NCBI GenBank assembly: GCA_951812525.1
Contig: OX638316.1
Coordinates: 124,001-188,000 of the forward strand
DNA: 64,000 nt
Origin: an uncultured Poribacteria bacterium
GTDB taxonomy: Bacteria; Poribacteria; WGA-4E; WGA-3G
Reading direction: 5' to 3'
In this document: positions 5,122-61,750 of the stretch, in pieces
Numbering within the stretch: position 1 is the stretch's first letter
Layout: each line of letters begins with the position of its first letter
Notes under the pieces: generated by a model
The model's input: the letters and a program-made list of their open reading frames with translations, nothing else
What the model was told of the DNA's origin: nothing
Databases searched by the model: none
Position numbers and translations under genes: made by a program

Positions 5122-5323
5122 TGTCGGGATACGGAGATCCCTCTTACAGAAGAAAAAAGTCGGGATTACAAATCCCTCCTACAATGAAAATTGGCAATTA
5201 GCGGTTGGCAATTGGCAAACCCAGAAGACATCGGAAAATAGACAAATTGCGCTTTAGGAACACAATTTGGAGATCGATCCTAGAGAAGAAAAGAGTCGGG
5301 ATTCGGAAATCCCTCCTACAGAA
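5122..5323. repeat. Cluster of dispersed palindromic repeats in the TPR-LamG gap
   Basis: Three copies of a unit of about 28 bases occur here (5122-5150, 5159-5186, 5294-5323). Each reads GTCGGGAT, a short loop, ATCCC, then TCYTACA. The arms pair (GGGAT/ATCCC or GGGATT/AATCCC). A related but longer variant with TTTAGGA and TTGGAGATCG lies at 5250-5285, and a GGCAATTGGCAA-type stretch at 5191-5219. Matching copies recur at 28586-28817 and inside the coding sequence near 59660-59725. No gene is seen in this 287-base gap. Confidence 0.75.
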
Positions 5324-28585: not shown

Positions 28586-28817
28586 GTCGCCGGAGTTCCC
28601 TCCTACACAGGAAGTGTCGGGAATCGGAGTTCCTTCCTACAGCAGAAGGAAATGCCCTGCTACATTATCGATTCTTGCTTGTATACTATAGGAAAAAGTG
28701 TTAAAATACAACTAACTTCCGGTTTGGCGATTGGCAATTGGCAGTTGGACAGCGTCGCGAAATGTAAATCTAAGACGAATTGTGCTTTAGGAGCGTAAGT
28801 TGGAGATCGCTTCTACA
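28586..28817. repeat. Second cluster of dispersed palindromic repeats
   Basis: Copies of the GTCGG-loop-TCCTACA repeat lie at 28586-28610 and 28616-28643, a GGCAATTGGCAGTTGG stretch at 28730-28747, and the longer TTTAGGAGCG...TTGGAGATCGCTTCTACAG variant at 28785-28818. All have counterparts in the 5122-5323 cluster. The cluster fills most of the 309-base gap between divergent genes and supplies the sequence just before the hydantoinase start. No gene is seen in the gap. Confidence 0.7.
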
Positions 28818-30443: not shown

Positions 30444-30566
30444 CTACAGAGGCATCTTCGCTCGTACCGTCATTACATCAGCTGTGAAGTTTTCGCCAGG
30501 CATCTCAATCACTCGATTGGATACATCTACTTCTTCAATAAAGACTTGAGTTGAGAATAAGCCGGA
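30444..30566 (-). pseudogene. Possible coding remnant downstream of rnpB
   Basis: On the minus strand one frame, ending at TAG 30446-30444, reads IEEVDVSNRVIEMPGENF then TADVMTVRAKMPL. The wording looks protein-like (EMPGEN recalls the MPGDN of EF-Tu domain 3) but it runs directly out of the RNase P RNA 3' end with no start or ribosome site. It may be the tail of a displaced gene or chance. Low certainty. Confidence 0.2.
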
Positions 30567-30901
30567 TTCTGTATGCGATGATCATTCATCTGGGATGGAT
30601 GTCACCATCCACCTCAAGCGGTTACCTGGGGACGAGGCGGGCAACCTGTATATGTCCCACATTTACCTTGCTCCAGATGGGGTTTACCAAGCTCCATAAG
30701 TCACCTTATGGACTGGTGCGCTTTTACCGCACCGTTTCACCTGTACAACGTTTTGAGGCGTTGTAGTCTACTTTCTGTTGCACTTTCCATAGCGTCGCCG
30801 CTCCTGGGGGTTACCCAGCATCCTGCCCTGCGGAGTCCGGACTTTCCTCATCCCGATTGTAAAACTACATTCGGGACGCGATCATCTACTCAACTCAAGC
30901 C
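30543..30901 (-). ncRNA. rnpB: RNase P RNA (bacterial type A-like)
   Basis: The catalytic RNA of RNase P, which matures tRNA 5' ends. On the minus strand, GAGGAAAGTCCGGACTC (30849-30833 region) is the conserved 5' P4 segment, and ACAGAATCCGGCTTA (near 30572-30558) is the conserved 3' segment. CTTGAGTTGAG at the 5' end pairs perfectly with CTCAACTCAAG at the 3' end, forming an 11-bp P1 that fixes both boundaries, about 359 bases. A promoter fits exactly upstream. Confidence 0.95.
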
Positions 30902-57025: not shown

Positions 57026-60000
57026 ATGGAATTCAGGCTTTTATTTTTTACAGTAATTGTCTTGTTAAGCTTTGCATGCTCCAGTTTTGCACAAGGACCG
57101 ACAATCCTTAGACATGGCGGTTCCGTTCAAACAGTGGAGTTCTCCCCAGTAGACAACTCGCTTATTGCAAGTGCTGGGGACAGCAACACCATTAAGTTGT
57201 GGCATCTGCAAAACAACACAGCGACAACCCTCAGAGGACACAGTAGGCAAATCAATTCAGTGGCATTTTCCCCAGATGGAAAACTACTTGCCAGTGGTGG
57301 TGATGATTGGTCTCTCAGATTGTGGGATGTTCAGAGCCAACAACAGATCGCCACGCTCGAACATATTACCGATCGAACTCGGTCCCAAATCAAGGAGGTC
57401 GCATTTTCTCATGATGGACAACTCCTCGCCACTGCAGGTCAACATGTAAAGTTATGGCAAGTCAGCACACATACCGAGATAGCGACGCTTCGACACGACA
57501 CGTATGTCTGGGGATTAGCGTTTTCACCGAATGGACAATTTCTCGCCGTTGGAGACAGTGAGGGCAGCGTGAAAATTTGGGACGTTCAGGAACGACAGAT
57601 TATATCGGAATTTGAAGGTGATGCAAACTACGTGTATACCGTCTCATTTTCACCAGATGGTAGAACCCTCGCAAGTGCTGGATACGATGGCGAAATTAAG
57701 TTATGGTCGACCTCAAATTGGTCGCTCCTCGGCACTCTCCAAAATAGAGGGACGGTCTATACCCTCGATTTTTCCCCAGACAGCAGGCTTCTTGCCAGCA
57801 CTGGACACGGAGCGGTAACCCTCTGGTCTGTCGAAAGCGGGAATCAAATCGCCTCTCTGCCAGGACATTCTGCTTGGATCTTTGGCGTTACCTTCTCGCC
57901 GGATGGAAGAACCGTCGCCAGTGGTGGAGACGATGGCACCGTCCGTGCCCAGAATATAGAACCCCATTTACAGACCCTACACCAACGAGAAACGGTGCGG
58001 ATAATCTATTTTCTTCCAATTAACCGTCGAGCACAACTGGAGATTGATACAAAGCTGGATACTTTAATAAAGGATGTTCAAGAGTTCTACGCCGCACAGA
58101 TGAACAATTATGGATTCGGCAGAAAAACCTTTGCATTTGAAGCCGACACCACCGGAAAAGCGGTGGTGCATCATGTAAATGGGAAGTTCAGCGACGCGTA
58201 TTACAATAACGAGACTATTGACAAAGTTATAGAAGAAATTGAGGGACGGTATGATTTGTCAAATAACCTCTATCTTATTGCTATAGATATAGGAAATGAA
58301 AGGATTGATATCCAGTGGTGTGGACGAGGTGGTGTCCATGGAACTGCTGGAGGCAAGGCAATTGTTCCCGCTTCTGGTAGTTGTTTTGTAGGAGACTTTG
58401 GTGTTGTTAACGCTGCACATGAACTCGGACACGCCTTTGGATTAGATCACGATTTCCGAAACGATGCTTACATTATGTCCTACGGATCAGACAGAGACCA
58501 ATTGTCGTATTGCGCCGCCGAATGGTTAGATGCCCACGGATACTTCAACACCAGTCAGACCTCTTTCAACGAACCGACAACAATTACGATGCATACACCA
58601 CTGGCGTTGCCATTTAGTGGGACCCGTTTCCGTTTTGAAGTAGCAGATACCGATGGACTCCATCAAGCGCAGCTGATTATCCCAGTTGCCTCTGGTGACC
58701 CAGCGGATGGCGTTAAGTTGCACAGTTGTAAATCCCTAAACGGCGAAATTAGCCAGATCGAATTTACCACAACTGAATTAACTGCAGTTCCTGGTAGTGA
58801 AGTCACACTTCGCGTTATTGATGTCCATGGCAGATTCACACAGGAGACGTATCCGTTTAGAGTGGAAGACATAGCGCGTGTTGACATCAATACCGACGGT
58901 GTGGTTAATGTGGATGACTTGGTGTTAGTGGCGTCTAAATACGGCACAGTCGCCGTTCGCGGTGCGTATCCAAACCCGGATGTCAATCGCGATGGGATGG
59001 TGAACCGTCAAGACCTTTTGCTTGTTGCTGATACCTTGGAATCAGAGGAAAACATTTCGGGTGCTCCTACCTCAAACACCGTAGTGGGCATTTTGCCGTC
59101 TTCAGTGTCGTCCCCTGCTATTGGAGAACAACTCACCCTTTCCCTCAGAATCGTGGACGGGAAAAACGTTGCGGGCTATCAGGCGACTGTGTCGTTTGAT
59201 ACCTCCGCCCTCCGTTACGTTGAAAGTGAGAACGGCGACTACCTACCGACGGGTGCCTATTTTGTATCACCGGTCATCGAAGGGAATACAGTGACGCTTG
59301 CGGCGACTTCTTTTGCTGAAGAGATTAACGGGAACGGCTTGCTGGCTACAGTGACGTTTGAGGTTGTCGCTGTTAATACCTCTACGCTGACGTTATCCAA
59401 TACGCTCCTGACAAACAGTGGCGGTGAAAGTTCAATTCCAGATACACGGGCAGCAGAGATAACCGAACCACCACGACTTATAGTGGACGCTAACAGGGAC
59501 GGCATTGTGAATATCTTGGATTTGGTGGTGATTGCTTCCAATTTCGGACAGACGGGAGAAAATCGCACCGATGTCAATAACGATGGTGTCGTGAATATCG
59601 TCGATCTTACATTGGTTGCAGGAGCGATCGGTGGTGGTGCAGGTGCGCCGTTGGCGTGGGGTCGCGATTCGGAGAGCATTCCTACAAGAGTCTGGAGTCG
59701 CGATCGGGAGATCGCTCCTACAAGAGAACAAGTCCAACATTGGTTGCGTCAGGCACGGCAAGTTAATCTAACGGATGCAACTTTTCAGCACGGGCTTCTG
59801 ATGCTGGAACGGCTTCTTGTGGTATTGACGCCAAAGGAGGCTGCACTGTTACCGAACTATCCGAATCCGTTCAATCCTGAGACATGGATACCGTATCAAT
59901 TGGCGGAGCCTGCGGATGTTAGTATTTCCATCTATGCTGCGGATGGTAGGTTGGTTCGGACTTTGGACTTGGGGCATCGGTCTGTGGGTCTCTATGAATC

Positions 60001-60127
60001 TCGGAGTCGTGCGGCGTATTGGAATGGTAGAAACGCACTCGGTGAACCTGTGGCAAGCGGGGTCTATTTCTATACGCTTACGGCAGGAGAATTTACTGCC
60101 ACGCGGAAGATGCTGATCAGAAAATAA
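57026..60127 (+). CDS. Secreted WD40 / zinc metalloprotease / dockerin / cohesin / dockerin protein
   Basis: A 1033-residue exported protein. Order: signal peptide (1-23); seven WD40 repeats (about 28-312), one propeller; a metzincin-like protease domain (about 330-540) with HELGHAFGLDH (465-475, the HExxHxxGxxH zinc site) and Met-turn IMSYG; an EF-hand/dockerin pair from 619 (DINTDGVVNVDDL, DVNRDGMVNRQDL); a cohesin-like domain (about 686-812); a second dockerin from 820 (DANRDGIVNILDL, DVNNDGVVNIVDL); a short linker encoded by two copies of the dispersed repeat (about 879-903); and a C-terminal YPNPFNP/FlgD-Ig-like domain (941-1033) that probably directs secretion or surface attachment. Having both cohesin and dockerin permits self-assembly or recruitment of other dockerin proteins such as the one at 60143. 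Confidence 0.92.
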   Translation: MEFRLLFFTVIVLLSFACSSFAQGPTILRHGGSVQTVEFSPVDNSLIASAGDSNTIKLWHLQNNTATTLRGHSRQINSVAFSPDGKLLASGGDDWSLRLWDVQSQQQIATLEHITDRTRSQIKEVAFSHDGQLLATAGQHVKLWQVSTHTEIATLRHDTYVWGLAFSPNGQFLAVGDSEGSVKIWDVQERQIISEFEGDANYVYTVSFSPDGRTLASAGYDGEIKLWSTSNWSLLGTLQNRGTVYTLDFSPDSRLLASTGHGAVTLWSVESGNQIASLPGHSAWIFGVTFSPDGRTVASGGDDGTVRAQNIEPHLQTLHQRETVRIIYFLPINRRAQLEIDTKLDTLIKDVQEFYAAQMNNYGFGRKTFAFEADTTGKAVVHHVNGKFSDAYYNNETIDKVIEEIEGRYDLSNNLYLIAIDIGNERIDIQWCGRGGVHGTAGGKAIVPASGSCFVGDFGVVNAAHELGHAFGLDHDFRNDAYIMSYGSDRDQLSYCAAEWLDAHGYFNTSQTSFNEPTTITMHTPLALPFSGTRFRFEVADTDGLHQAQLIIPVASGDPADGVKLHSCKSLNGEISQIEFTTTELTAVPGSEVTLRVIDVHGRFTQETYPFRVEDIARVDINTDGVVNVDDLVLVASKYGTVAVRGAYPNPDVNRDGMVNRQDLLLVADTLESEENISGAPTSNTVVGILPSSVSSPAIGEQLTLSLRIVDGKNVAGYQATVSFDTSALRYVESENGDYLPTGAYFVSPVIEGNTVTLAATSFAEEINGNGLLATVTFEVVAVNTSTLTLSNTLLTNSGGESSIPDTRAAEITEPPRLIVDANRDGIVNILDLVVIASNFGQTGENRTDVNNDGVVNIVDLTLVAGAIGGGAGAPLAWGRDSESIPTRVWSRDREIAPTREQVQHWLRQARQVNLTDATFQHGLLMLERLLVVLTPKEAALLPNYPNPFNPETWIPYQLAEPADVSISIYAADGRLVRTLDLGHRSVGLYESRSRAAYWNGRNALGEPVASGVYFYTLTAGEFTATRKMLIRK
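59660..59725 (+). repeat. Dispersed palindromic repeat inside a coding region
   Basis: Two adjacent copies (GTCGCGATTCGGAGAGCATT and GTCGCGATCGGGAGATCGCT, each followed by CCTACAAGAG) match the intergenic repeats at 5122-5323. They encode the linker RDSESIPTR and SRDREIAPTR. The stem of the second copy is GCGAT/ATCGC, replacing GGGAT/ATCCC. A more decayed copy sits at the same place in the next gene (61320-61352). Confidence 0.75.
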
Positions 60128-60142
60128 GAGGAGAATTTATAC

Positions 60143-61750
60143 ATGAGAAATATATTTTTTTCGATCTTACTGATTTGGTTTGCGATATTTGTTTTGGCAC
60201 TAAATACTTTTGTCCAAGATTCTCCACAACAGCACTTACCGGAAGGTGCCAAAGCACGCCTCGATAAAGGCAGAATCAATGAGATACAGTATTCACCAGA
60301 TGGCATACGTCTTGCGGTTGCGAGTTCTATCGGTATTTGGCTTTACGATGCACAGATGGGTGAGGAACTTGATCTCCTCACAGGGCATACGGGTGGGGTC
60401 AGAAGCGTCGTGTTTAGTCCTGATGGTCAGATGCTTGCGAGTGGAAGTTCAGACGAAACCGTCCGTCTCTGGGATGCAGAGACAGGCAGACACATACGCA
60501 CGCTCACAGGGCATACGGGTGGGGTCAGAAGCATCGTGTTCAGTCCCGATGGAAATACAGTCGCTAGTGCGAGTAGAGACAGCACAGTGCGTTTGTGGGA
60601 TACGGAGACAGGCAGACATTTACGCACGCTCACAGGGCATACGAGTTGGGTCGAGAGCGTCTCGTTCAGTCCTGATGGAAACACAGTCGCTAGTGCGAGT
60701 AGAGACAGCACGGTGCGTTTGTGGGATACGGAGATAGGCAGACATTTACGCACGCTCACAGGGCATACGAGTTGGATCGAGAGCGTCTCGTTTAGTCCTG
60801 ATGGAAATACAATCGTTAGTACGAGTAGAAACGAGACAATCCGTTTGTGGGACGCACAGACCCATCAACATATACGCACACTCACAGGACATACGGATTG
60901 GGTCACTAGCGTCTCGTTTAGTCCTGATGGAAATACAATCGCTTCTGGAAGTTCAGACGAAACCGTCCGTCTCTGGGATGCGAACACCGGCAGGCATATA
61001 CGCACACTCACGGGGCATACGGATTGGGTCACTAGCGTCTCGTTTAGCCCCGATGGAAACACAATCGCTTCTGGAAGTGCGGACGGGATGGTTTTGTTGT
61101 GGGAACTCGCACCCACATCAACGGAATCGAAAAAAATCGTAGAGGACGTTAACACCGATGGGGTAGTAAACATTCAAGACGTGGTATTAGTCGCTTCCAA
61201 CTTTGGGAAGACGGGTCGAAACGCTGCGGATGTCAATAACGATGGGGTCGTGAATATTGTGGATTTGACATCAGTTGCGGGGACGATAGGCAATGCTGCA
61301 GGAGCACTGTCAGCATGGAGTCGTAATTCGGCGGTCGTTCCTACAAGAGACCAAATGGAACAATGGTTGCATCAAGCGCGGCAGATGAACCTGACAGATC
61401 CTGCCTTTCAGCGTGGCGTTCTGGTACTGGAACAATTCCTCGCTGCCTTGACTCCCAAAGAGACAGCACTCTTACCGAACTATCCAAATCCGTTCAATCC
61501 TGAGACGTGGATACCGTATCAATTGGCGGAACCTGCGGATGTTAGTATTTTTATCTATGCTGCGGATGGGAGGTTAGTCCGGACGTTGGCATTAGGATAT
61601 CAACCTGTTGGTATCTATGTATCTCGGAATCGTGCAGCGTATTGGGATGGTAAGAATGAACTCGGTGAACTTGCAGCGAGTGGAGGCTATTTTTATACGC
61701 TAACTGCAGGTAAGTTCACTGCAACGGGAAAAATGTTGATACGCAAGTAA
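60143..61750 (+). CDS. Secreted WD40-dockerin protein with YPNPFNP C-terminal domain
   Basis: A 535-residue exported protein. Signal peptide (1-24), the LPEGAKARLDKGRINEIQY lead shared with the protein at 54792, then seven WD40 repeats (about 45-325) forming one propeller. A dockerin follows (about 333-385) with two calcium loops, DVNTDGVVNIQDV and DVNNDGVVNIVDL. The C-terminal domain (about 445-535) contains LLPNYPNPFNPETW, as in the previous gene. AGAGGAG precedes the ATG and the gap to the upstream gene is only 15 bases, so the two are cotranscribed. Its dockerin could bind the cohesin of the neighbour. Confidence 0.92.
   Translation: MRNIFFSILLIWFAIFVLALNTFVQDSPQQHLPEGAKARLDKGRINEIQYSPDGIRLAVASSIGIWLYDAQMGEELDLLTGHTGGVRSVVFSPDGQMLASGSSDETVRLWDAETGRHIRTLTGHTGGVRSIVFSPDGNTVASASRDSTVRLWDTETGRHLRTLTGHTSWVESVSFSPDGNTVASASRDSTVRLWDTEIGRHLRTLTGHTSWIESVSFSPDGNTIVSTSRNETIRLWDAQTHQHIRTLTGHTDWVTSVSFSPDGNTIASGSSDETVRLWDANTGRHIRTLTGHTDWVTSVSFSPDGNTIASGSADGMVLLWELAPTSTESKKIVEDVNTDGVVNIQDVVLVASNFGKTGRNAADVNNDGVVNIVDLTSVAGTIGNAAGALSAWSRNSAVVPTRDQMEQWLHQARQMNLTDPAFQRGVLVLEQFLAALTPKETALLPNYPNPFNPETWIPYQLAEPADVSIFIYAADGRLVRTLALGYQPVGIYVSRNRAAYWDGKNELGELAASGGYFYTLTAGKFTATGKMLIRK

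Follow-up and report, generated by a model that had tools for sequence, protein, structure and literature searches.

GTAG-type REPs of a poribacterial sponge symbiont follow GC skew and recur as a linker peptide in a family of secreted proteins

The short palindromic repeat found between and inside genes of the window, a 64-kb stretch of the 5.06-Mb, one-contig genome of a Candidatus Poribacteria sponge symbiont, is a GTAG-type REP. Its orientation in this genome is linked to GC skew, and its translation recurs as the linker of one kind of secreted protein. The REP would be non-autonomous, one of the single-strand DNA elements that RAYT/TnpA-REP HUH transposases mobilise, and, judging from relatives, a GTAGGAG-associated RAYT clade may have spread it. 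The symbiont's own genome would have lost that clade, or the gene may sit in an unassembled part, and the REP would now be inherited or maintained in trans. Insertion or survival would depend on the replication strand, GTAG heads of two unrelated REP families lying on the C-rich strand, while a WD40/dockerin-like/T9SS protein would have taken up one REP, in frame, in the linker ahead of its secretion tail. This copy would have become the peptide WSRDLEIAPTR and multiplied with the gene family, the linker palindrome decaying under weak selection for the peptide. We consider this explanation as a whole, a RAYT-spread GTAG-type REP with replication-strand dependence and linker capture, to be probable. 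Less likely than not is the sharper claim that REPs of unrelated families enter, or persist on, the lagging-strand template exclusively, recording fork direction across a rearranged chromosome, and that a single REP gave rise to the WSRDLEIAPTR module in dozens of sponge-symbiont WD40/dockerin-like/T9SS proteins.

Read on the opposite strand, the repeat consists of TGTAGGAG, a 6-bp hairpin and CGAC, in its fuller anatomy T-GTAG-GAG, a 6-bp stem, a four-base TCCN loop and then CGAC, with GTAG directly 5' of a short palindrome as is typical of GTAG-type REPs. We take the TGTAGGAG head to resemble that of Pseudomonas REPs. In the orientation of the original prediction, columns 4-9 pair with 14-19 around the loop NGGA (175 copies of the own genome), and CTAC, the complement of GTAG, is near-invariant at columns 22-25 (171, 173, 175 and 173 of 175 copies). 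The REP-like element had been predicted at four places of the window, and all of them hold it, in eight units, five intergenic and three coding:

5123..5148, + strand (orientation of the original prediction): REP unit with the GTAG-type head TGTAAGAG on the - strand; stem GGGAT/ATCCC
5159..5183, + strand: REP unit of 25 nt with loop ACA; predicted hairpin of -4 kcal/mol
5295..5320, + strand: REP unit in the commonest form of the genome, identical in 23/175 copies
28586..28607, + strand: REP unit lacking part of its 5' stem arm by deletion
28616..28641, + strand: REP unit of the GGGAA/TTCCY type
59661..59686, + strand: coding REP unit with decayed stem; encodes (W)GRDSESIPTR
59697..59722, + strand: coding REP unit with perfect stem; encodes (W)SRDREIAPTR; 44.4 bits
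61320..61345, + strand: coding REP unit in the homologous position, without its stem; encodes (W)SRNSAVVPTR; 20.7 bits

Next to both intergenic clusters, at 5186-5218 and 28720-28740, lies another short repeat, which contains TTGGCAATTGGCAA-like words.

The claim that all named stems pair despite their differences held in part: units 5123, 5159, 5295 and 59697 pair, as does 28616 with two wobbles, while 28586, 59661 and 61320 do not, with one of six Watson-Crick pairs left in 61320 and, as read from the sequence, two in 59661. Individual hairpins are weak against shuffles (z from -1.98 to +1.16 across the eight units). The predicted compensating changes are found across 30 distinct copies, hand-picked from the listed copies where the 175-copy set contains 73 distinct ones: 89.4% of stem cells are paired, double-sided stem changes number 25 against 9.9 in shuffles, and covariation amounts to 0.418, a value reached in none of 500 shuffles, against 0.217 in shuffles and 0.141 at most in slid versions of the stem. 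Both-sided change affects three of the six stem pairs, and maintenance of the REP stem by compensating change is supported. By eye only, the loop GGA is a candidate for pairing with the TCC next to the stem.

Copies are not rare. Genome-wide, a strict pattern has 135 matches against 0 for the reversed pattern and a loose one (up to 3 mismatches) 261 against 7 for the control, and in a scan of 1.416 Mb 175 matches exceed 12 bits against 0 in reversed sequence; the choice of these stretches, 28% of the genome, was guided in part by copies, so that 175 cannot be read as an unbiased density. The REP is dispersed, high in copy number and mainly extragenic, 6 of 117 clusters lying within called ORFs. 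The strict pattern occurs in 41 of 60 relatives (own genome included); these fall into 4 of 17 genera, none outside the order, and strict copies per genome range from 0 to 122 within one genus. Genomes of family f4 also carry REPs. All 80 named loci among the matches listed, from at least 93 stretches, belong to Candidatus Poribacteria.

Five genes of the own genome encode Y1_Tnp proteins, two of which pass the NCBIfam cut-off for REP-associated tyrosine transposases and three of which are IS200-type; a search with the REP-associated tyrosine transposase model adds a 249-aa relative at 1906715. No window-type REP was found within 1.5 kb of any of the five genes or in three 20-kb stretches. The RAYT-like gene at 2370036 has GGTAGGCACGGTTT.. 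REPs on both sides, that at 1906715 falls in the CACAAACT-type clade and that at 4154636 is without REPs. The first (158 aa) was dropped as a candidate cognate RAYT because another REP type flanks it and it belongs to another clade of the tree. GTAGGAG-head REPs adjoin RAYT genes in seven relatives (G036, G038, G018, G010, G024, G026 and G007), often on both sides and in runs. In a tree of 65 rows RAYTs group largely by the type of the flanking REP, and the GTAGGAG-type (A-type) RAYTs form a 14-row clade (SH-aLRT 89), outside which the A-labelled L072 lies; inner support is modest, with 18 of 61 branches starred. The association is seen in these relatives and not in the window's own genome, among whose RAYT matches the predicted transposase, a member of the A-type clade, is absent, in an assembly rated 96% complete that may miss a gene. 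Since the own RAYTs serve other REP types and none is of the cognate clade, the window REP family looks orphaned in its own genome.

Several REP/RAYT pairs of this sort occur in the phylum, with REPs of the types GGTAGGTGCGGTTT.., GGTAGGTTCGGTTT.., AGTAGTAGGGCAATT.., TGTAGCACAAACT.., TGTAGGCGCGGCAT.. and TGTAGGAGCGAGCTG... At least six pairs with differing heads and stems coexist in Poribacteria (L072, L079, L095, L096, L102, L105, L303 and others), and some genomes hold two or more. RAYTs L061-L069, a compact clade with the top NF047646 scores (about 200 bits) and no consistent GTAG repeats flanking them, are perhaps of the long-terminal-repeat type.

Orientation was first typed at 147 positions, a subset, among matches listed up to about 100 places per genome, and later tests used the 1.416-Mb scan. 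There, neighbours less than 300 bp apart share their orientation in 57 of 58 pairs, and the inverted-pair unit of REPINs/BIMEs is not what the own genome holds; in the 80 named loci of other Poribacteria, 17 of 44 adjacent pairs are in the same and 27 in opposite orientation. The 118 clusters keep one orientation over long blocks (29 runs, with 58.6 expected; z -5.61), a pattern kept after thinning to 20 kb (23 runs against 37.7 expected). Orientation correlates with local GC skew (rho 0.57, 118 clusters; 0 of 117 circular shifts as high), with skew at third codon positions (rho 0.56) and, in 40 unselected 20-kb stretches, with skew at rho 0.73 (28 clusters). No link to the coding strand is found (rho -0.08), and transcription was rejected as the cause of orientation. 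As orientation tracks GC skew and not gene strand, it speaks for a DNA rather than an RNA element, so that of the predicted folding as RNA or DNA the latter is favoured. A second REP family of the own genome is likewise polar, with rho -0.48 for its GTAG strand (67 clusters) and -0.40 more than 2 kb from any A copy (47 clusters), while the other GTAG hairpins of the genome are non-polar (rho -0.12, p 0.37). Polarity is strong only in the window's genome, and other genomes support it weakly: with all copies it is not significant in G018 (rho 0.16, 24 clusters) or the 80 named loci (rho 0.13, 118 clusters), and a filter for perfect stems, chosen afterwards, gives rho -0.89 (6 clusters) and -0.47 (23 clusters) in other genomes.

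Because tRNA and 16S genes share the C-rich strand, the GTAG heads on that strand tentatively lie on the lagging-strand template, provided that such genes mark the leading strand, an assignment resting on five tRNA loci and one 16S. All 13 tRNA genes found in the stretches covered, at five loci of the own genome (near 977, 1027, 2543, 4260 and 5053 kb) are on the C-rich strand, as is 16S over 15-30 kb, with slightly positive skew within 5 kb. There are hints from these genes that the C-rich strand is the leading strand; dnaA and pheS lie on the G-rich strand, and housekeeping genes as leading-strand markers gave few and mixed matches. IS200/IS605 relatives act on the lagging-strand template, according to the accessible text of PMC6006769.

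The same blocks could arise by biased loss, one hairpin orientation being deleted more often in lagging-strand synthesis and inverted pairs being purged. Palindromes are generally unstable, and the near-absence of opposite neighbours fits such purging, but inverted pairs survive in relatives (27 of 44), so that purging would have to be lineage-specific, and we regard this reading as unlikely. Somewhat less probable still is selection of orientation itself, with the REPs acting as polar chromosome signals, like FtsK-orienting or other skewed octamers, in one orientation per replichore. That two unrelated REP families share the polarity and both open with GTAGG would agree with it; against it stand the non-polar other GTAG hairpins and a strict copy number which, ranging from none to 122 in one genus, is unlike an essential signal.

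Of the six ORF-internal clusters three lie near doubtful starts and three are real, namely those at 4562281 and in two genes of the window, all of one protein kind:

57026..60127, + strand: gene of a secreted WD40 + dockerin-like + T9SS-tail protein with two REP units in its linker
60143..61750, + strand: paralogous WD40 + dockerin-like + T9SS-tail gene

Eukaryote-like repeat proteins are a known feature of Poribacteria. The protein encoded at 57026-60127 presumably has a zinc-protease motif, AAHELGHAFGLDHD, placed after the WD40 repeats and ahead of the dockerin-like/T9SS tail. The coding unit follows the dockerin-like DVNNDG repeats, precedes the T9SS tail and reads W-S/G-R-D-x-E-I-A-P-T-R; unit 59697..59722 is a 36-bp in-frame tandem copy of 59661..59686. 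Tolerance as a protein linker, as originally proposed, is borne out at one site and in one frame across the coding copies of a multi-gene family, whose linker consensus WSRDLEIAPTR is the translated REP. With 26-nt matches of up to 44 bits, independent origin of coding and intergenic copies is unlikely; by their sequences both would be of common ancestry, through one capture or perhaps several with conversion.

Of 99 linkers from the own genome and its relatives, 11 did not match the core expression and were dropped, and a tree was built from the other 88: 22 score at least 14 bits, 33 are W-type below that and 33 are other. When 52 W-type linkers are combined, their majority DNA scores 42.8 bits, that of the 29 W-type linkers which individually score below 0 bits still 15.9 bits, and that of 36 non-W linkers -51.4 bits; most linkers are without the palindrome yet keep traces of the REP. 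In the tree of the flanks, a starred 52-row branch contains 46 of the W or REP rows, and 11 changes between W-type and other are needed, of which starred branches force at least four (for the group 'other'). Four W-type rows come from family f2 (G036, G039), whereas a search of f4 and outgroups (30 loci) yielded 16 parsed linkers, none W-type, seven of them from f4 itself. Because W-type linkers exceed others by only 1-3 residues (counted by eye), a plain 26-nt insertion does not suit the small difference in length. The peptide is only weakly constrained, its terminal TR excepted, since the 52 W-type linkers diverge from the majority by 0.28, 0.26 and 0.40 at the three codon positions.

The nearly equal length of linkers with and without the REP peptide, and a linker family as huge as 74 matches in the own genome, would agree with the reverse order of events, in which a RAYT mobilised a coding segment that suited it by chance and the REP was born from the linker. 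This is very improbable, as the RAYT genes of a coherent clade are flanked by REPs that share the head and have related stems, and f4 has REPs while its seven parsed linkers are without the W-type.

Forty of 103 classified clusters lie between divergent and 10 between convergent genes. Per kb, divergent regions reach 0.73 against 0.41 and 0.45 in the others (chi-square p 0.08), and in unselected stretches 0.29, with 0.27 in convergent and 0.14 in codirectional ones. An enrichment in divergent regions was rejected as mostly an effect of length, divergent regions having a median of 322 bp against 95 bp; by length 28.9 would be expected where 42 were found (p 0.08), and these regions are not depleted of REPs. 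A role of the copies as RNA elements, such as terminators or stabilisers of mRNA positioned by transcription, is very unlikely: published REPs lie mostly downstream of genes (accessible text of PMC3733652), but the copies here are not linked to the coding strand, are at least as dense in divergent regions, and have no Rfam match at gathering score, at which the window yields only RNase P RNA, class A (RF00010, 296 bits; 30543-30897, - strand).

How REPs spread is unsettled, and a genome with two polar REP families offers a direct test, while in the linker a mobile DNA hairpin would have become part of a protein and been copied along with the genes of that family. In a literature search, most subscription papers being outside its scope, no report was found of REPs or RAYTs in Poribacteria or of dispersed REPs that follow GC skew or replication strand; the word 'Poribacteria' is absent from the accessible texts of PMC3733652, which names members of the PVC superphylum, PMC12306157 and PMC6006769. 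The accessible parts of PMC3733652 and PMC3116915 already describe REPs located in ORFs, genomes with several REP families, and tandem arrays, while the polarity and the protein fossil shared across a family seem to be new.

As far as the accessible text of Di Nocera et al. (2013; PMC3733652) describes them, REPs of the GTAG superfamily, including Pseudomonas GTAG-1, share with the poribacterial repeat the GTAG end, the 6-bp stem, a length of 20-40 nt, hundreds of copies, several families per genome and some copies inside ORFs. Unlike them, the poribacterial copies are not concentrated downstream of genes, their neighbours are nearly all in the same orientation, and orientation tracks GC skew. 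REPINs/BIMEs with RAYT, from what is accessible of PMC3116915 and PMC8266576, are alike in a cognate RAYT flanked by its REPs, here in relatives, and differ in that the own genome has practically no inverted doublets (57/58 direct). A hint of polarity, for arrays only, is contained in the accessible part of PMC3116915, with tandem REP arrays forward near 2 Mbp and reverse near 4 Mbp, while E. coli REPs lie on both strands without clear clustering (accessible text of PMC12306157). Rickettsia RPE and the intragenic REPs of Opitutus, as covered in the accessible text of PMC3733652, are likewise palindromic repeats read in frame as short peptides; their hosts are scattered genes, many in DNA repair, whereas the poribacterial copies occupy a single linker position of one secreted family, many of whose paralogues carry decayed descendants.
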